From NCBI GenBank assembly GCA_947258845.1, contig CAMYJZ010000038.1, positions 1 through 34,330 on the forward strand: a stretch of DNA of 34,330 bases, read 5' to 3'. Position 1 is the stretch's first letter, and each line of letters opens with the position of its first letter. Made by a program: the position numbers and the translations under genes. The notes beneath the pieces are model-generated. The model was given only the letters and a program-made list of their open reading frames with translations, was not told the origin of the DNA and made no database searches. Of this stretch, positions 13,952 through 24,101 are shown piece after piece. This DNA comes from an uncultured Ectothiorhodospiraceae bacterium. GTDB lineage: Bacteria > Pseudomonadota > Gammaproteobacteria > UBA9214.

Positions 13952-14947
13952 CTAGACAGAAAGCGCTGCTTCATCCAGCAGCCCGGCCTGTTCCCGCAAG
14001 GCCAGGATGTGCTCTTCCCAGTAGCGCGGGCTGTCAAACCAGGGGAACGCCAGCGGGAAGGCAGGGTCCTCCCAGCGCCGCGCCAGCCAGGCCGCATAGT
14101 GAATGATGCGCAGCGTGCGCAGCGCCTCGATCAGTTGCAGCTCGCGGTAGTCGAGGTCATGAAACTGCAGGTAGCCCTCGATGATATCGGCCAGCTGGGC
14201 CTGCATTTCATCGCGGCTGCCCGATATCAGCATCCAGAGGTCCTGCATGGCGGGCCCCGTACGGCAGTCATCCAGGTCGACGAAGTGCGGTCCCTTGTCG
14301 GTCCACAGCACGTTGCCGGGGTGGCAATCACCGTGCAGGCGAATTTGTTGAACAGCGCCCGCACTGTCAAAACGGCCGCTCACCTGCTGCAGCAGATCCT
14401 CGACGAGGGTCCGGTAGGCCAGCTCGATGTGGGCGGGGATGAAACCCTGCTCGAGCAGGAACCGGTAGGAGCGGGTACCGAAACTGTCGATGTCCAGCGT
14501 TGGCCGGTGGTGGAAGGGTCGTGTTGAACCTGCCGCGTGGATGCGACCGATAAAGCGGCCCATCCACAGGCGATCCTCGCGCAGGTTCAGTTCCGGCCAG
14601 CGGCCACCCTGGCGGGGGAAGAGCGCAAAGCGATAGCCCCGGTGACTGTGCAGGCTGGTGTCGCCAATGACCAGTGGCGCCACCACCGGGATCTCCTCTG
14701 CGGCCAGTTCCAGGGCAAAACCATGTTCCTCGAGAATCGACTCATTCGACCAGCGTCCCGGCCGGTAGAACTTGGCAATCAGCGGCAGGCCCTCGTCGAG
14801 GCCCACCTGGTAGACACGATTCTCGTAACTGTTGAGCGCCAGGAACTGGCCGCTGGTTTGAAAGCCGCAACTGTCCACCGCGTCCAGCAGGGTGTCGGGC
14901 GTCAGGCCGGCGTAGTCGGCGGGATCAGTTGCGGTTTGGTCGTTCAC
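13952..14947 (-). CDS. srkA: Stress response kinase A (SrkA/YihE/RdoA family)
   Basis: A 331-residue Ser/Thr protein kinase of the choline-kinase-like fold. E. coli SrkA protects cells from envelope and oxidative stress and is part of the Cpx response. The family segments are LNSYENRVYQVG, IAKFYRPGRWSNESILEEH, the catalytic loop RLHGDCHPGNVLW and the metal-binding HFVDLDDCRTGPAMQDLWML, ending in WFDSPRYWEEH. I chose the GTG at 14947 because the product then matches the E. coli length (328). An in-frame GTG at 14998 adds 17 residues, and neither has a good ribosome binding site. It is first in a same-strand series with the GNAT gene, 70 bases upstream of it. Confidence 0.92.
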   Translation of the reverse strand: MNDQTATDPADYAGLTPDTLLDAVDSCGFQTSGQFLALNSYENRVYQVGLDEGLPLIAKFYRPGRWSNESILEEHGFALELAAEEIPVVAPLVIGDTSLHSHRGYRFALFPRQGGRWPELNLREDRLWMGRFIGRIHAAGSTRPFHHRPTLDIDSFGTRSYRFLLEQGFIPAHIELAYRTLVEDLLQQVSGRFDSAGAVQQIRLHGDCHPGNVLWTDKGPHFVDLDDCRTGPAMQDLWMLISGSRDEMQAQLADIIEGYLQFHDLDYRELQLIEALRTLRIIHYAAWLARRWEDPAFPLAFPWFDSPRYWEEHILALREQAGLLDEAALSV

Positions 14948-15164
14948 GGGTATGGATGCAATGCGGAATGTCGCAGGGTCCTGTGGTAACGGAATCACCT
15001 AGTGTAGAGATAAAGCCATCTGCTCCCTAATTATTTTCAAGTAATCAGTGAGTTTGGGAACCCTCGGCCGTTATTCGTCAATATATTGTCGCCACTGAGG
15101 GGTGCAATGACTTATAGTTAATCCAGCAGAGTCTCTGTTCGGAAGGATGGCAAACAGGTGAGCA

Positions 15165-17162
15165 ATGCAGCGATTGACTAAAAGGTTTTCAGGCAGCCTG
15201 TCTGTGTTGCTCGCGCTACTGAGCGCAGTATCGCTGTATGCCGCGCAACCGGCTGCGCCGGCTGACCTGGCAGAGATCCGGGTGGCCGGGCCGCTGCCAA
15301 CATCCGTGCCCTGGGGTGCGGATGTCAGGGCCCGCGTTCCGCGGTTTGCGCCGGATCGTCTGCTGGTGAAATTCCGCCCGGGGACGGCAGCAGCAGAAAT
15401 CGCACGGATGCATCGGAAAAATGCGGCCAAACCATTACGTGAGATCCCGGGTATTGGCGTGCATGTGTTGCAGGTGCCCAGGGGCAGCGTGCGCAAGAAG
15501 CAGGCCCGGTACCGTGCCAATCCGAATGTCGAATACGCCGAGCCGGACTATTACCGGGTGCTGGTGATCCCGGACGAGGGCAATGATCCAGGGCCGGATG
15601 CGGGTGGGGTGTTTACCGGCAGGGAATACTTTGAAGAACAGTGGGGGCTGAACAATGCCGGGCAGGATCATACCTCTTTTGATCTTTTTGGTAATCCGAT
15701 ACAGGTATCCGGTGTACCCGATGCCGACATCGATGCGCCCGAGGGCTGGGATATCACGACCGGGAACCCGGCAGTCAAGATCGCCATTCTCGATACCGGA
15801 ATCGATTGCGACAGTATTGAACATACCGGCAAGTGTGTCGAGGAAATCAGTTTCGTCGGGGATTACAGCGATTACCTTGATGATCCCGGAGACTACGTGG
15901 GGCACGGAACCCATGTGGCCGGCATTGCCGCCGTACATACCAATAACGGTATTGGTGTTTCCGGTGTTGGCTGGAATTCATCCCTTGGCAATCTCAAGAC
16001 CTGTTTCGCATATCAATTGGAAATAATCCCGCACGTCATCAACATGAGTTATGGCAGTGACCAGCTGGATGAAAACAATGATCCAGTCGGCCCGCCGGTC
16101 CAGCCCAATACGGAAACAGCTGCTATTGCCTACGCCTGGAGCCGGGGCGTGGTGCTGGTCGCCGCCGCGGGTAACGATAATAATTCGGTCCGTATCTATC
16201 CGGCAGCCAATGATGATGTGATCGCAGTCGCTGCAACGGACCATATTGATGACCGGGCATCCTTTTCAACATTTTCGATACCAGGTGATCACTGGGTGTC
16301 GCTGATGGCACCAGGTGTAGATACCCTGTCTACCAATCCAGTTTTCGATTGTATTTTTCTTGCCGACTTGCTTGGCTTCCCTTTTGACCCGCTCACAGAG
16401 AGCTGTCTTACCTGGAAATCCGGCACCTCGATGGCCAGCCCCCATGTCGCCGGGGCGGCGGCACTGGTCTGGGCCCACCTGTTTCCTGGAGAGTTACCAC
16501 AGTCCTGCATAAACCCGTCCGGGGTGTCCTGTAACGTTGTCGTTCGCAATCACCTGGAGGCAGGTGCCGACACGGTCGGGGCGCTGGGCCAGAATTTCCT
16601 CGCGTGGTCCCAATACGGGCGATTGAACCTCCATGGCGCACTCGCCTTCGCGGATAACGATGCCGATGGCATCCCGGATGCAACAGACCCCGATGATGAC
16701 AATGACGGCCTGTCGGATCTTGATGAGATCAATGACATCGGTACCGACCCCCTGGTTGCGGACAGCGATGGCGACGGTCTGCTGGATGGTTTCGAGGTCA
16801 ACTACAAACCAAACCCGGCCGATACCTACACCCCGGGCCAGGACCTCAACCCACTGGCAGCCGACACCGACACCGATGGCTTCAATGACGGCATGGAACT
16901 GGCGGCCGGTTATGACCCGCTGGATGAAGCCGATTTCCCGGTCTGGGGGGACATCAACGATGACCGGGTCGTCGATACGATTGATGTGCTGCTGGCTGCC
17001 CGTGCAGTCCTGGGCCTGCTTGTCCTGGACAGTGCCCAGCAGGCGCGCGGCAATGTGGCGCCGCTTGAGGCCGGCATACCCAATCCGCCGCTCGTTGATG
17101 AATTCAACCTGGCCGACCAGCTATTGATTATGCGCAAAGCCATGGGCAGCACCAGTTACTGA
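15165..17162 (+). CDS. Secreted subtilisin-like serine peptidase (S8) with type 3 calcium repeats and dockerin-like tail
   Basis: A 665-residue exported protease. A signal peptide (about 1-27, ending SLYAA) is followed by an inhibitor-like propeptide (about 60-130, with PDRLLVKFRPGTA and NVEYAEPDYYR). The S8 domain is about 150-490. It has catalytic D210 in LDTGID, H247 in GHGTHVAG, oxyanion N337 in AAGND and nucleophile S422 in GTSMASPHVAG, all intact. The tail carries thrombospondin type 3-like acidic repeats (DNDADGIPDATDPDDDNDG, DSDGDGLLDG, DTDTDGFNDG). It closes with a two-part dockerin-like module, GDINDDRVVDTIDVLLAARAV and then FNLADQLLIMRKAMG. No LPXTG or PEP-CTERM sorting signal is seen. 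AGGTGAG at 15153-15159 supports the start. A second subtilase of the same architecture lies at 19023-20774. Confidence 0.95.
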   Translation: MQRLTKRFSGSLSVLLALLSAVSLYAAQPAAPADLAEIRVAGPLPTSVPWGADVRARVPRFAPDRLLVKFRPGTAAAEIARMHRKNAAKPLREIPGIGVHVLQVPRGSVRKKQARYRANPNVEYAEPDYYRVLVIPDEGNDPGPDAGGVFTGREYFEEQWGLNNAGQDHTSFDLFGNPIQVSGVPDADIDAPEGWDITTGNPAVKIAILDTGIDCDSIEHTGKCVEEISFVGDYSDYLDDPGDYVGHGTHVAGIAAVHTNNGIGVSGVGWNSSLGNLKTCFAYQLEIIPHVINMSYGSDQLDENNDPVGPPVQPNTETAAIAYAWSRGVVLVAAAGNDNNSVRIYPAANDDVIAVAATDHIDDRASFSTFSIPGDHWVSLMAPGVDTLSTNPVFDCIFLADLLGFPFDPLTESCLTWKSGTSMASPHVAGAAALVWAHLFPGELPQSCINPSGVSCNVVVRNHLEAGADTVGALGQNFLAWSQYGRLNLHGALAFADNDADGIPDATDPDDDNDGLSDLDEINDIGTDPLVADSDGDGLLDGFEVNYKPNPADTYTPGQDLNPLAADTDTDGFNDGMELAAGYDPLDEADFPVWGDINDDRVVDTIDVLLAARAVLGLLVLDSAQQARGNVAPLEAGIPNPPLVDEFNLADQLLIMRKAMGSTSY

Positions 17163-17421
17163 TCTCCCCTGCAGTTCCAGCTTCCTGCCGACATTTCTCT
17201 TGCATGCTGCGCTGGTCTGGCACGCCAGCGCCGGCCATGGTTTACAAATGTTCACATTCATCTGCCTCGATGATGCCTATACTCCTGCCTTAAGTTGAAA
17301 GCCGATAACGGCGGCCGAGGAGTCGTGGGGACTGTGGGATGCCGTTTCGGAATCTAAAACAAATCACGGCACATAACCGCCGTCGTTGAGAAAAAACGTT
17401 GCTGCTGAGGGGAAAGTTCAA

Positions 17422-18879
17422 ATGGACATATCTGCGCTGCTCGATTCTATTTTAACTACGCTGGGCGAATTCCTGCCCAAGATAGCCGGGGCGCTTGGCA
17501 TTCTCATCGTTGGCTGGCTGGTCGCGGTGATTGTTCGCGCGGCGATACGCAAGGGTCTGTCCCTGGCCGGTCTGAATGAGAAGGTCGGCAAGGACAGCGA
17601 GAAAAAGATGGACCTTGAAGGCGGTATCGCCAAGGGCGGCTACTGGATTGTCATCATCATGACCCTGATCGCCGTGTTCAACGTGCTTGACCTGGAGCTG
17701 GTATCGCGGCCGCTGGAGAATATGGTGGGCCAGGTGCTGGATTATCTACCGCGCATTATCGGTGGCGGTGCACTCCTGCTCATAGCCTGGCTGCTTGCTA
17801 CCGGGGCGCGCACGCTATCCAGCAAGGCGCTGGCCGCCACCACGCTCGATGACAAGCTCTCCGCCGAGGCGGGCATGACACCCCCAAGCGACAATATCAG
17901 CAATGTCGTCTACTGGCTGATCCTGTTGCTGTTCCTGCCGGCGGTGCTGGGCGCCTTCCAGCTGGGCGGGCTGCTGGACCCGGTGCAGGGCATGGTCGAC
18001 AAGATCCTCAACATGCTGCCGAATATCTTCGCCGCTGCCGTAATCGGCCTGGTCGGCTGGTTCGTGGCCAAAATCCTGCGCGACCTGGTCAGCAACCTAC
18101 TGGCGGCCGCCGGGGCGGACGGCATCGGCGAGAAGGCCGGGCTGCAGGGTGCGGTGAGCGTTTCGTACCTGGTCGGAACGGTGGTGTTTATTTTCGTGTT
18201 TATCCCGGCGCTGATCGCGGCGCTCAATGCCCTGCAGATCGAGAGTATCTCGCAGCCTGCCACCGAGATGCTCGGCCTGATGATGGCGGCCATACCGAAC
18301 ATCTTCGCGGCGGCCATTATCCTCGGTATCGCCTGGTTCGTGGCGCGCCTGGTTGCAAACCTGCTGAGCAACCTGCTCGATGGCATGGGCTTTAACCGGC
18401 TGCCGGAAAAAGTGGGTCTGGCGGATGCCTTCACCAGCGACTTCACGGCCTCGAAACTGGTAGGCAGCATTATCATTTTCTTCGCCATGCTGTTTGCCAC
18501 TGCCGAGGCGGCCAACCGCCTGGGCTTCAGTCAGGTGAACGAACTGGTCGCGATGTTCATCGAGTTCGGCGGCCAGATCATTCTCGGTACGGTCATTCTC
18601 TCAGTCGGATTCTGGCTGGCAAATCTGGTCTACCAGGGTATCAGCAAGGTGGGCGGTGCCAACTCGGCTGCGATGGCGAATATTGCCCGTATCGCCATCC
18701 TTGGCCTGGTCACGGCCATGGGCCTGCGTGCGATGGGAATCGCCAACGATATCGTCAACATGGCCTTTGCATTGACGCTGGGTTCTGTTGCGGTTGCCGT
18801 GGCCCTGTCATTCGGGCTTGGGGGGCGTGAGGCCGCCGGCAAACAAATGGAATACTGGCTGGCAAAAACAAGGGACTGA
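17422..18879 (+). CDS. MscS/CmpX-like membrane channel protein with repeated conserved TM helices
   Basis: A 485-residue inner-membrane protein of the conserved-TM-helix (CmpX-like, mechanosensitive channel-related) family. Five copies of a membrane motif P/G-x-I-x3-hydrophobic-GW-hydrophobic are visible: FLPKIAGALGILIVGWLVA, YLPRIIGGGALLLIAWLLA, MLPNIFAAAVIGLVGWFVA, AIPNIFAAAIILGIAWFVA and FGGQIILGTVILSVGFWLA. They are separated by polar stretches such as LNEKVG, LDDKLS, IGEKAG and LPEKVGLADAF. A glycine-alanine-rich C-terminal helix (LTLGSVAVAVALSFGLGG) resembles the MscS pore helix. The ATG at 17422 has GAGGGGA at 17407-17413. A TTG at 17386 would add 12 residues but has no support. By family it responds to membrane tension or envelope stress. 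A clear terminator follows. Confidence 0.9.
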   Translation: MDISALLDSILTTLGEFLPKIAGALGILIVGWLVAVIVRAAIRKGLSLAGLNEKVGKDSEKKMDLEGGIAKGGYWIVIIMTLIAVFNVLDLELVSRPLENMVGQVLDYLPRIIGGGALLLIAWLLATGARTLSSKALAATTLDDKLSAEAGMTPPSDNISNVVYWLILLLFLPAVLGAFQLGGLLDPVQGMVDKILNMLPNIFAAAVIGLVGWFVAKILRDLVSNLLAAAGADGIGEKAGLQGAVSVSYLVGTVVFIFVFIPALIAALNALQIESISQPATEMLGLMMAAIPNIFAAAIILGIAWFVARLVANLLSNLLDGMGFNRLPEKVGLADAFTSDFTASKLVGSIIIFFAMLFATAEAANRLGFSQVNELVAMFIEFGGQIILGTVILSVGFWLANLVYQGISKVGGANSAAMANIARIAILGLVTAMGLRAMGIANDIVNMAFALTLGSVAVAVALSFGLGGREAAGKQMEYWLAKTRD

Positions 18880-18908
18880 CAACCAACAGGCTTCGGGCGG
18901 CAAGCATT

Positions 18909-18938
18909 GCGGGGGCGAAGTTGGCCCCCGCCTTTTTA
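18909..18938 (+). terminator. Rho-independent terminator after the MscS/CmpX-like gene
   Basis: GCGGGGGC (18909-18916) pairs perfectly with GCCCCCGC (18924-18931) around a seven-base loop, followed by CTTTTTATTT. It ends the transcript of the channel gene, ahead of the convergent subtilase. Confidence 0.92.
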
Positions 18939-19022
18939 TTTGCGATCCCACTGACAAAGGCCTGCACAGGTACCGGTGACATACCGGTTTGTTGATCTTC
19001 TCCAGTGCCCCTCGACAGCTGA

Positions 19023-20774
19023 CTACTGCTGAACCAGTTTCAGCAACAGGATTACGTCCTGCAGGTTGATCACGCCGTCAGGTGCGCCCGGTGGATAGAG
19101 GTCACCATGGGCGAGTGCATGGGTGGTCACGGGGCGCTGTCCAGTGGCGATCTGCAGGGCAACCAGGTAATCCGCGGCATTGACGTTGTCGTCTGATACC
19201 CCGGCGGGCGCGAGGTCACCATCATCCGCATTGAAGACCAGGGGTATCGGGTCACTGGCATCGCCATGGCTGTCATCATCAGTGTCGCTGTCGTTCGGGT
19301 CAAGGTCCTGCCCAGGCGTATAGGCTCCCGGATCACCATCCCAGGCCACCTCGTCGAGGTCTGTTAGCCCGTCGCCGTCGCTATCCGCAAGCAAAGGGTT
19401 GGTCCCGATAGAGTCCTCGAACTCATCTGACAGGCCGTCACCGTCATCGTCGCTGTCACAGGCATTGCCTGTCCCGTCTTCGTCGGTATCCACTTGGCCA
19501 CAGACCGACAGCAGGGGTTCCTGGAGGCCGTCCGGGTCGTCGTCACATGTGCCATCTATGGTGGCGCAGGGTGCCGGGTCTCCCAGTGCCACCAGGACGG
19601 TCTTCACCCCGACCGGCGTGCTGCCCGGGTTGTCGGCCCGATACAGGGCCGCGGCACCGGCCACGTGCGGGCTGGCCATGCTGGTGCCACTGATGCTGTT
19701 GGTGCCGCCTGGCCAAGTGGAGAGGATGAGTAGACCCGGCGCCATGATGTCAACGCCCGAACCGTAATTGCTGAAACAAGCGAAACTGTCGTCGTCGCTC
19801 TCGGTGCAGCTGGAGAAACCGACCGTGTCGTCAGTGAGTCCGCCAGGAGCGCCGTCAAAATCGGCCAGCGCCGAGACCGTGATCACGTCCGGGTGCCCGC
19901 CAGGTGATACCTGGCTCACGTCGACGCGATCATTGCCGGCGGCCACTACATACACCACGCCGGCGGCGACCGCAGTGGTCAGCGCGTCATCCAGAATGAC
20001 GCTGATACCGCTGAAGCCCAGGCTCATGTTGGCTACCTCAATTTCGCCAGCATGCGCGGTGACGTGGTCGATACCGGCGAGGATCCAGTTGAGGTAACCG
20101 CTGCCCCGGTTATCAAGTACCTTGACCACCCACAGCCGGGCGCCGGGCGCCACGCCGACCACGCCGCTATCGTTGTCGAGGGCGGCGATGGTGCCAGCGA
20201 CGTGGGTGCCATGCCCATCGCCGTCATTGGCGCCGCTGTCATTGTCGCTGCAGGTGGTATTGAAGGGGCCCTGCCTGGCGCAATTCGTGTAACGATAAAT
20301 ATTCAGGTCCGGGTGGTCGAGGTCGGCACCGGTATCCAGTACCGCCACATCGACATCGACGCGGTCATCGATGCCGTCGACGCGTGTCGTCGGGTGCAGT
20401 TCGGCGTCGATGCGGTCGATCCCCGTCGGCAGCGTCTGCGCAAAGGCCCGCACCCGTCGGTTTGGCTCCACCCGCAGGATCCGCGGGTCCTGCGGCAGTG
20501 CCTGCAGGCGTCCAGGCGGTACCACGGCCGCCATGCCCTGCAGGGCGTGACGGTAGACAGACCGCATCGACAGTCCATGTTCATTGGCAATGTCCGCGGC
20601 CGTTGGCCCGGCAGCCAGGTCTGGTTTGAACTGGATGATATGCGTGGCAGGCGCCTGGTCCATCGCGGGTGGCGCAGCCACAGTGATTGTACTTATACAG
20701 GCAAGCAACAGTGTTGCCGCGATAACGCGGTGAATCTTCCAGGTACGGGCAATGACCCAGTGTTGGCGTGACAT
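19023..20774 (-). CDS. Second secreted subtilisin-like serine peptidase (S8) with type 3 calcium repeats and dockerin-like tail
   Basis: A 583-residue exported protease paralogous in architecture to the one at 15165. The ATG at 20774 gives a standard signal peptide (basic start, then VIAATLLLACISTITVAA). The frame opens further to a TTG at 20843, which would bury the signal. A short propeptide-like region (about 40-115) precedes the S8 domain, with D147 in VLDTGAD, H188 in GHGTHVAG, N281 in AAGND and S365 in GTSMASPHVAG. The C-terminal third has acidic repeats (DTDEDGTGNACDSDDDGDG, DSDGDGLTDLDE, DSDTDDDSHGDA). It ends with a dockerin-like pair, VNAADYLVALQIATG and GVINLQDVILLLKLV. Its propeptide is shorter than that of the first subtilase. 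Exported, calcium-stabilised, substrate unknown. Confidence 0.94.
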   Translation of the reverse strand: MSRQHWVIARTWKIHRVIAATLLLACISTITVAAPPAMDQAPATHIIQFKPDLAAGPTAADIANEHGLSMRSVYRHALQGMAAVVPPGRLQALPQDPRILRVEPNRRVRAFAQTLPTGIDRIDAELHPTTRVDGIDDRVDVDVAVLDTGADLDHPDLNIYRYTNCARQGPFNTTCSDNDSGANDGDGHGTHVAGTIAALDNDSGVVGVAPGARLWVVKVLDNRGSGYLNWILAGIDHVTAHAGEIEVANMSLGFSGISVILDDALTTAVAAGVVYVVAAGNDRVDVSQVSPGGHPDVITVSALADFDGAPGGLTDDTVGFSSCTESDDDSFACFSNYGSGVDIMAPGLLILSTWPGGTNSISGTSMASPHVAGAAALYRADNPGSTPVGVKTVLVALGDPAPCATIDGTCDDDPDGLQEPLLSVCGQVDTDEDGTGNACDSDDDGDGLSDEFEDSIGTNPLLADSDGDGLTDLDEVAWDGDPGAYTPGQDLDPNDSDTDDDSHGDASDPIPLVFNADDGDLAPAGVSDDNVNAADYLVALQIATGQRPVTTHALAHGDLYPPGAPDGVINLQDVILLLKLVQQ

Positions 20775-20998
20775 GATAAGAGTAGTCTGATTCAGCGGCT
20801 GCGACCCCGCTTGCGTAGCGCTTATATTGTTATTGATAACCAAAGGTAACCCAGAACCCGGCGCAAGGGTATCTGTTCATGGGTCACAGGCAAGCCAGGC
20901 GCCGATGTCCGTTATTGATTGTGTAGATTTTACATAGAGTTATAACATTGCTGATTTGCGCCGGGAGGCGGTCGAGAGTGTTGGCGGCCAGGTAATGC

Positions 20999-22512: not shown

Positions 22513-22578
22513 GCCGGTTGGTTTTGGGCGGCTGCCTTGTCGGTCGTAAAAAATCATGAAATTCATCGGAGTAGGCCT

Positions 22579-23313
22579 TTGTGGAAGCAGATCGCAGACT
22601 TCTGGCACGTACTGAGGGGCAGTATCCGGGACCTGGCGCCAATTATCCTGGTAATCGGGTTCTTCCAGCTGGTCGTGTTGCGTCAGCCCATCCCCAATCT
22701 GGGCGACCTGGTCATGGGCACCCTGTTGGTGTTGCTGGGCCTGACCCTGTTCGTGCGCGGGCTGGATATGGGCCTGTTCCCGATCGGCGAGTCCATGGCG
22801 TTTTCCTTCGCTCGCAAGGGGAGCCTGTTCTGGCTGCTGTTATTCGCATTCGCACTTGGTTTCGGTACCACTGTCGCTGAACCGGCGCTGATCGCCGTGG
22901 CCAATGAGGCGGCTTCCGTAGCGGCCGATGCGCAAATCATCGCGTCGAGCGAATCCGCGCGCGGGGCCTATGCACTGGGTCTGCGACTGACCGTGGCGCT
23001 TTCCGTCGGAGTCGCCATTCTGCTGGGGGTGTTCCGCATCATCAAGGGCTGGCCATTGCATTACATGATCATGGTTGGCTATCTCGGGGTGGTGGTGATG
23101 ACACCACTGGCACCGAAGGAAATTATCGGCATCGCCTACGATTCGGGCGGGGTCACCACCTCGACCATTACCGTGCCGCTGGTGACGGCACTCGGTGTGG
23201 GGCTGGCGATGTCCATCGAGGGACGTAACCCTATGGTGGACGGTTTCGGCCTGATCGCGTTTGCCTCGCTGACCCCGATCATTTTCGTGCTCGGCTACGG
23301 GATGCTGTTCTGA
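22579..23313 (+). CDS. DUF1538 membrane protein, first copy
   Basis: A 244-residue polytopic membrane protein of the uncharacterised DUF1538 family with about six or seven hydrophobic helices. The key conserved segments are [19 protein letters not shown] (about 95-113) and [20 protein letters not shown] (about 195-215), both shared with the next gene. These short polar breaks within helices look like substrate- or ion-binding elements of a transporter (inference). I chose the TTG at 22579 because GGAG lies at 22568-22571 and because the N-terminus then aligns with the second copy. An in-frame TTG at 22537 would add 14 residues without a better site. Its stop overlaps the next start by one base. 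Confidence 0.9.
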
Positions 23314-24101
23314 TGGAGACCCTGTCCCTGTATCTCGACATCCTGCTGGGAACGATCCGTGATGTGCTGCCGATCGCGGCCATCCTGTTCGGCTTCCAGA
23401 TCTTCGTGTTGCGCCGCCCGGTTCCCCAACTCAAGCGCGTGCTGACCGGTTTTGTCTATGTCCTGCTGGGCATGGTGCTGTTTCTCCAGGGGCTCGAGCA
23501 GGCCCTGTTTCCGCTGGGCCGGCTGATGGCTGCCCAGCTGACCGATCCGGCCTTTATCCTTGGTGATGGCGCCGTCGCCCGTGTCCTGTCCTGGACCGAC
23601 TACGGCTGGGTCTACCTGTTCGGCGCACTGTTGGGTTTTTCCACCGCCCTCGCGGAACCCGCCCTGATCGCCGTGGCGATGAAGGCGCGCGAGGTCTCCG
23701 CTGGATCCATCGGCGTCTGGGGTCTGCGGGTGGCAGTGGCCCTCGGTGTGGCGGTGGGGGTCATGCTGGGGACGTTCCGCATTGTCACCGGCACGCCCCT
23801 GCATTACTACATTATCGCCGCTTACATTATTGTAATCGTACAGACCGCGTTTGCACCGCGTATTATTATCCCGCTGGCCTATGATTCGGGTGGTGTAACC
23901 ACCTCAACGGTGACGGTGCCACTGGTCATGGCACTGGGCCTGGGCCTGGCCAACACGGTCCCGGGCAGCAGTCCACTTCTGGACGGCTTCGGGATGATTG
24001 CGTTGGCCTGTCTGTTCCCGATTATGGCGGTCATGACCTATGCACAGCTCAGTGAATGGCGGGCGCGACGCAGACACGATCGTGAAACCGGCCAGGATTG
24101 A
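23313..24101 (+). CDS. DUF1538 membrane protein, second copy
   Basis: A 262-residue paralogue of the preceding gene, starting on the last base of its stop (TGATG), so translation is coupled. It has the same layout. The opening LLGTIRDVLPIAAILFGFQIFVLRRP parallels IRDLAP...[10 protein letters not shown] in copy one. [19 protein letters not shown] and [20 protein letters not shown] recur in the same order. It carries an extra loop of about 15 residues around 70-85 and a basic C-terminal tail (EWRARRRHDRETGQD) that should face the cytoplasm. Two half-size homologous proteins made in equal amounts suggest a heterodimer. The substrate is unknown. Confidence 0.9.
   Translation: METLSLYLDILLGTIRDVLPIAAILFGFQIFVLRRPVPQLKRVLTGFVYVLLGMVLFLQGLEQALFPLGRLMAAQLTDPAFILGDGAVARVLSWTDYGWVYLFGALLGFSTALAEPALIAVAMKAREVSAGSIGVWGLRVAVALGVAVGVMLGTFRIVTGTPLHYYIIAAYIIVIVQTAFAPRIIIPLAYDSGGVTTSTVTVPLVMALGLGLANTVPGSSPLLDGFGMIALACLFPIMAVMTYAQLSEWRARRRHDRETGQD

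Follow-up and report, generated by a model that had tools for sequence, protein, structure and literature searches.

Why should two predicted exported subtilases of an uncultured Ectothiorhodospiraceae bacterium end in modules that resemble the dockerins of cellulosomes? The question is raised by contig CAMYJZ010000038.1 of assembly GCA_947258845.1, a stretch of 34,330 bases that is one entire contig (C38) of a 2.35-Mb draft genome and that we refer to as the window. It encodes S8a, a subtilase of 665 residues (15165..17162, plus strand), and S8b, a subtilase of 583 residues counted from its ATG (19023..20774, minus strand; an alternative in-frame TTG lies at 20843), and an initial annotation of this DNA had proposed that their dockerin-like tails either attach them to a cohesin-like partner or stabilise them by means of calcium. 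Judged by sequence profiles and predicted folds, the tails are dockerin-fold modules homologous to type-I dockerins, and they are a family trait, a swappable terminal module found genome-wide, which goes beyond what one window can show. The reading that we favour, although we stop slightly short of giving it an even chance, is that the tail is a plug-in docking tag on exported enzymes and that the receptor it binds is no recognisable cohesin.

The kinship with dockerins depends on how the tails are searched. In a Pfam scan of the whole S8a and S8b proteins Dockerin_1 gave no match at E <= 1, the S8b tail scanned alone gave no Dockerin_1 match at E <= 0.01, and the only tail of this genome that exceeds the Dockerin_1 cut-off is that of a PLD protein. 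With the last 170 residues of S8a as the query, dockerins were matched weakly (E 0.75), and a profile built from the seven tails of the genome ranked cellulosomal dockerins at the top (E 1.1e-6). A total of 83 distinct tail proteins was found, of which 72 with at least 33 bits were used for the position of the tail and 70 for an alignment. The profile of these 70 tails, searched against PDB, returned dockerin or cellulosomal-enzyme chains in its top nine rows, type-I dockerins first (best E 7.7e-12); judged by name, no clearly unrelated chain came up before row 26, at E 0.0072. Scanned alone, 53 of the 70 tails hit Dockerin_1 at E <= 0.01, the sole Pfam family to come up.

Structure prediction led to the same fold. 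The AlphaFold2 model of the S8b tail (19026..19235, minus strand) has a predicted local distance difference test score (pLDDT) of 92.3 and a predicted template modelling score (pTM) of 0.81, with helices at residues 20-30, 38-44 and 58-69, and the model of the S8a tail (16935..17159, plus strand; pLDDT 81.9, pTM 0.71) shows the dockerin three-helix order. Re-examination of Foldseek's own matches gave Z 9.8 for the S8b model against 2ccl_B (root-mean-square deviation 1.5 over 60 residues) and Z 10.4 for the S8a model against residues 73-137 of 8x39_A (1.6 over 65), with 2ccl_B level at 10.3; all entries listed in these comparisons were dockerins or cohesin-dockerin complexes. In Foldseek itself the S8b model had a best E of 0.016, with none <= 0.001, and the first 23 rows were all dockerin or cohesin-dockerin entries. 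The initial annotation had staked its proposal on dockerin similarity being present in a profile search; it is present, and the profile E-value together with the two model Z-scores bears out the description of the tails as dockerin-like, though whole-protein Pfam scans miss them. We file the module under the dockerin fold and not as a cohesin-binding dockerin.

EF-hand loops comprise 12 residues and carry their ligands at positions 1, 3, 5, 9 and 12. Positions 1, 5, 9 and 12 are conserved in each half of the tail, and position 3 is not kept in extended loops. Over the 68 of 72 tails that were matched to the alignment, the four ligand columns hold Asp (99%), Asp (90%), Asn or Asp (97%) and Asp (100%) in the first half, and Asp (90%), Asp (93%), Asn or Asp (78%) and Asp (100%) in the second, so that a calcium-ligand pattern, the lack of which would have refuted the proposal of the initial annotation, is in fact conserved. 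An insert with an invariant Pro sits between ligands 1 and 5 in about nine-tenths of the second halves and about four-tenths of the first. Two types of tail can be separated by a text rule, which assigned 31 tails to each and left 10 of the 72 over. Type A reads HGDLYPxGxPDGxIN and ends soon after the last helix; the S8b tail, by profile, alignment and model a dockerin-fold loop-helix pair with both loops extended, belongs here. Type B has a canonical first loop, a second loop like VAPLxxGxPxPDG and often an aromatic last residue, and by the same three lines of analysis the S8a tail is such a pair, with a canonical first loop, an extended second loop and a final aromatic residue. Elsewhere, the catalytic domain of a subtilase of genome G010 (L079:4052-5143, minus strand) is apparently truncated and leads directly, as judged by eye, into a type A tail without the TSP3 repeats.

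A search of the genome for other dockerin-bearing proteins, which the initial annotation had recommended, added five to S8a and S8b, namely a PLD, a PhoD, a purple acid phosphatase, a GH16 and a di-haem oxidoreductase protein, for seven tail proteins in all. The tail is C-terminal on the two subtilases and on the PLD, PhoD and phosphatase proteins; on the GH16 and di-haem oxidoreductase proteins it is N-terminal and follows the signal. In a set of 57 relatives' genomes, in which the family drafts are 64-100% complete, a tail match was found in 22 of the 23 genomes of the same family and in none of the 34 of other families, with up to ten matches in one family genome, and a class-wide draw of 369 genomes held 18 tail-positive ones in 11 families. 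The carriers among 20 loci include metagenome-assembled genomes labelled Ectothiorhodospiraceae and Thiogranum and the strain Candidatus Litorirhabdus singularis IMCC14734 (L054), and weak tail matches also occur in a Planctomycetota and a Marinimicrobia record among these loci.

The proteins that carry the tail are varied. The 72 tails divide into 54 that are C-terminal, 8 that are N-terminal, 1 that is internal (26 residues from the end) and 9 that are not placeable, which makes the tail terminal in 62 of 63 placeable cases. A Pfam tally at an E limit of 0.001 (the limit for tails scanned alone was 0.01) covered 59 tail proteins of 200 to 1500 residues, whose heads include 18 S8 domains, 5 lactonase-like proteins, 4 multicopper oxidases, 4 GDSL lipases, 3 matrixins, 3 purple acid phosphatases and 3 di-haem oxidoreductases (DHOR); TSP3_bac is present in 41 of the 59. 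By a crude hydropathy rule, a signal-like segment was seen in 46 of the 53 tail proteins whose 5' end is closed, and lipobox-like matches occur in two (L080 and L060) and look incidental by eye. Two of the 59 have matches to outer-membrane cytochrome domains of the MtrC/MtrF kind, so that electron-transfer proteins may be among the bearers of the tag.

Comparison of heads with tails shows that the tails are exchanged between enzymes. S8a and its orthologue L077 are identical at 220 of 250 residues of the S8 domain (88%) and at 28 of 73 in the tail (38%); with another subtilase, L118, the same protein shares 87 of 247 residues of the S8 domain (35%) and 44 of 75 of the tail (59%). Fast drift alone is insufficient to account for the S8a case, because ten other pairs with 77-79% head identity keep 59-79% tail identity. 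The S8a orthologues L077, L102 and L103 all differ in their tails, and tails on unrelated heads have a mean identity of 42% over 300 sampled pairs. The GH16 gene (L008:4099-5772, minus strand) and the di-haem oxidoreductase gene (L008:6467-10294, plus strand), which are divergently transcribed, have the N-terminal tail and about 200 further residues in common at 77% identity, which probably reflects a partial duplication that left the shared part in front of two different enzymes.

How might such a module serve the proteins that bear it? We propose that the enzymes would be exported by Sec and type II secretion, GspD being present in the genome over its cut-off, that the tail would fold on calcium outside the cell, and that the TSP3 repeats would form a calcium-stiffened spacer. 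Once folded, the tail would bind a receptor other than a recognisable cohesin, located on the cell surface or in the matrix, and thereby dock its enzyme there, and the two subtilases would be two passengers of the tag, with type B on S8a and type A on S8b. An address label is favoured over a structural part because the module is nearly always terminal, sits on unrelated exported enzymes and is exchanged among them. A broader form of this proposal, which we advance only tentatively, holds that the dockerin-fold tag with extended loops, in its types A and B, could be a general swappable address label in this family and, here and there, in other families of the class, with a receptor of some other fold to read it.

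Several observations weigh against docking. The docking, secretion and calcium binding of the tails are predictions, and the extended loops do without the usual position-3 ligand, which leaves the calcium geometry there a prediction as well. The fold scores come from Foldseek's own matches, and the mean pLDDT of the five models ran through 92.3, 91.5, 71.2, 70.5 and 64.1 for S8b and from 81.9 down to 50.7 for S8a. PF00963 detected no cohesin in this genome or, at E <= 0.1, in any of the 23 family genomes, and a second profile, built on 16 cohesins of the class, picked up nothing beyond two weak fragments, one at E 0.36 and one at E 0.39, in 2 of the 23; since these are drafts in which gaps are possible, absence is weak for any single genome and the claim rests on the 23. 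With no cohesin in the genome or the family, neither was there a scaffoldin with several cohesins, which is the criterion for a cellulosome, and the cohesin-like partner supposed by the initial annotation was not recognisable by two profiles in this genome or the 23. We also considered and rejected a partner gene beside the tail genes: when 447 open reading frames of at least 120 residues from 76 loci were clustered with the tail proteins removed, no neighbour in the 25 largest clusters viewed recurred in a partner-like way, and the largest cluster, of 11 proteins, was taken as generic from its member in the window, a GGDEF/EAL regulator. Finally, nothing points to co-evolution of the tails with a receptor particular to each genome: tails of unrelated heads from the same genome are not clearly more alike than those from different genomes (the observed difference was reached in 743 of 5000 shuffles).

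Some of these observations suit the main rival, which we consider rather unlikely, that the tail is a calcium-folded cap without any partner that seals the end of the TSP3 rod and shields the enzymes from proteolysis in calcium-rich surroundings. That calcium ligands are among the best conserved positions, that 41 of the 59 tail proteins have TSP3_bac, that no cohesin was found and that same-genome tails show no clear similarity are all consistent with a cap. However, positions that are not ligands are conserved too, with Arg, Lys or Gln at residue 28 of the S8b tail (98%) and His or Arg at residue 43 (90%), and the N-terminal tails of the GH16 and DHOR proteins lie beside the signal peptide instead of capping a C-terminal TSP3 rod. 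A cap also leaves the terminal position on unrelated heads unexplained. A tag for recognition by the type II secretion system during export, and not for docking outside, would fit that terminal position, the signal-like segments in 46 of 53 tail proteins, the presence of GspD and the fusion of a cohesin to a secretin-like protein at L132, yet it appears to us very improbable. GspD-type secretins are common regardless of tails (55 of the 57 genomes at E <= 0.001, a limit that also catches related secretins, and 38 of 57 over the cut-off), the secretin-cohesin fusion sits in a genome that is tail-negative, and substrates of type II secretion are not known to require a single module in common. 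The fusion itself is a minus-strand frame (L132, 1432-3327, genome G039) in which the Pfam cohesin lies at the C-terminus.

The remaining alternative is that these are ordinary dockerins, binding cohesins that our searches missed or that neighbouring organisms make, and the fold and profile of the tails are indeed those of type-I dockerins. According to PMC12484212, an S8 protease of C. thermocellum carries a double dockerin, the first half of which gives it a preference for the cell-bound cohesin ScaD. The S8a tail is matched best in fold by residues 73-137 of that module, which we take to be its second dockerin, the one that this paper calls functionally ambiguous. The distribution of cohesins makes this alternative improbable, though not quite as improbable as an export tag. 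In the class-wide draw PF00963 was over its cut-off in 18 of 369 genomes and in 0 of the 18 tail-positive ones, and the class profile, with its best E of 0.36, did no better in the 23 family genomes. At E <= 0.01 a cohesin was found in 1 of the 18 (G159, E 0.008, on a contig without a listed dockerin). Cohesins at this limit occur in 7 of 27 genomes that have Dockerin_1 only, compared with 20 of 324 that have neither module (p 0.0022), and in 6 of these 7 the cohesin and the dockerin lie on one contig at most 5 kb apart. The Dockerin_1-only genomes differ from all 36 tail-positive genomes (1 of 36, p 0.017) and less clearly from the tail-positive genomes of the class draw (1 of 18, p 0.12), contrasts that were counted by hand from tables and whose p-values overstate independence, as 22 of the 36 belong to one family; counted by family, 7 of 24 against 1 of 11 is not significant (p 0.39). 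The rate among tail-positive genomes equals the background (1 of 18 against 20 of 324, p 1.0), which indicates a lack of association with cohesins and not avoidance. At one cohesin locus (L131, genome G044) the cohesin protein has TSP3-like repeats and adjoins an Rhs-like fragment with a dockerin-like loop, the repeats, the Rhs likeness and the loop being judged by eye.

A cohesin-free docking tag would have partial parallels among known systems. The type-I dockerins of clostridial cellulosomes (1ohz_B, 2ccl_B) provide the best sequence-profile matches and are among the best fold matches of the tails, with which they share duplicated calcium-loop/helix segments, the three-helix order and a terminal position on exported enzymes. 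They differ in that no cohesin is detected here, the second loop is usually extended by the insert with the invariant Pro, TSP3 spacers are present and, in the 25 of 55 families listed, most heads are proteases, oxidases, esterases or phosphatases. The C-terminal domains of type IX secretion are terminal sorting domains with a fold unrelated to that of dockerins; they too form a single, exchangeable end module that many exported enzymes, otherwise unrelated, have in common, whereas no dedicated machine for export or anchoring has been identified for the tails. Peer et al. in 2009 reportedly described non-cellulosomal dockerins of archaea and other bacteria. Another likeness is dDoc_0689, the double dockerin on an S8 protease of C. 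thermocellum (8x39, 8x3a; Chen et al. 2024, as described in PMC12484212): there too a subtilase bears dockerins, and residues 73-137 of the module are what the S8a tail resembles most in fold. It has two full tandem dockerins in a cellulosome host with cohesins, whereas here there is one dockerin and no cohesin was found.

Genomes of anaerobic methanotrophic (ANME) archaea pair non-cellulosomal dockerins with cohesins (PMC9012536), Halobacterium has dockerins on a subtilase, Subt-(Dockerin_1)2 (PMC2605481), and Saccharophagus has two dockerin-like open reading frames and distant cohesin-like modules (PMC2386152). That dockerins exist outside cellulosomes, also on subtilases, is thus already known (PMC2386152, PMC2605481, PMC9012536), and the tails share this with them but differ in having several copies per genome, extended loops, tail swapping and no cohesin found. 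What sets this case apart is how many and how varied the carriers are, together with the extended loops, the exchange of tails and the fact that no cohesin was detected throughout a bacterial family, and no paper on this tail family was found among the titles listed, which were mostly open-access literature. Dockerins are mostly understood through cohesins, and several tails per genome without a detectable cohesin imply either a new Gram-negative dockerin receptor or a job of the fold that needs no partner. Either answer would help to explain the orphan dockerins in databases and could give an enzyme-display tag for Gram-negative bacteria.

Turning to the two passengers, S8a and S8b share the order of signal, propeptide, S8 domain, TSP3 repeats and a tail of about 70 residues, as the initial annotation had described. 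In S8a the Peptidase_S8 match spans residues 203-442 (15771..16490, plus strand; E 2e-35) and in S8b residues 141-395 (19590..20354, minus strand; E 4.1e-46), and both retain the full catalytic set of Asp, His and Ser motifs (DTGID/DTGAD, GHGTHVAG and GTSMASPHV). The propeptide of S8a is Fervidolysin_NPro-like (residues 60-128, 15342..15548, plus strand); in S8b Inhibitor_I9 matched residues 68-109 with 19.2 bits, under the cut-off of 21.2. The difference in propeptide length that had been noticed is real, because the S8 domain begins about 60 residues further into S8a than into S8b. TSP3_bac is over its cut-off of 25 in both proteins (40.8 and 31.1 bits), with three stretches in S8a (16692-16760, 16761-16823 and 16863-16925, together 16692..16925, plus strand) and two in S8b, the strongest at 19389..19451 (minus strand), in the whole-protein Pfam scan.

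The two genes are convergent, S8a on the plus and S8b on the minus strand, around a gene for an MscS/CmpX-like membrane protein of 497 residues (17386..18879, plus strand) that matches PF05552 (MS_channel_1st_1) in five stretches and NCBIfam NF033912, an arrangement on which coordinates, strands and matches agree with the initial annotation. A special role of this channel gene was considered and rejected, and it seems to be an incidental neighbour that nothing ties to the tail system. At L084, in a genus mate (genome G002), the order S8a-channel-S8b of window positions 15165-20985 is kept in part, with 89% identity in the DNA of the channel gene and the C39-TPR gene also kept, while the body of S8b is gone except for a tail remnant and S8a is without the stretch bearing the catalytic serine, through true decay or possibly through an assembly fault. 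Because both proteases are damaged there, the subtilase pair is not a strictly conserved unit, an assembly fault being possible. A terminator-like hairpin of 8 pairs, all G-C, lies 3' of the channel gene (18909..18931, plus strand), in a scan whose 6 such matches are close to chance (shuffled mean 4.4).

The other neighbours that were scanned are ordinary: GGDEF/EAL, NnrS, GNAT and PF01636 kinase-like genes upstream, and C39-TPR, a DUF1538 pair, phosphoglucomutase, Sel1, SPOR and a Glu/Leu-dehydrogenase type downstream. The PF01636 (APH) kinase-like gene (13952-14998, minus strand) lies near a subtilase-tail gene, as do homologues in three further genomes, at L107 and L118 and, near the truncated subtilase, at L079, and this association persists though the subtilases are only distantly related. 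The two DUF1538 genes adjoin one another as a tandem pair at 22537-24098 on the plus strand.

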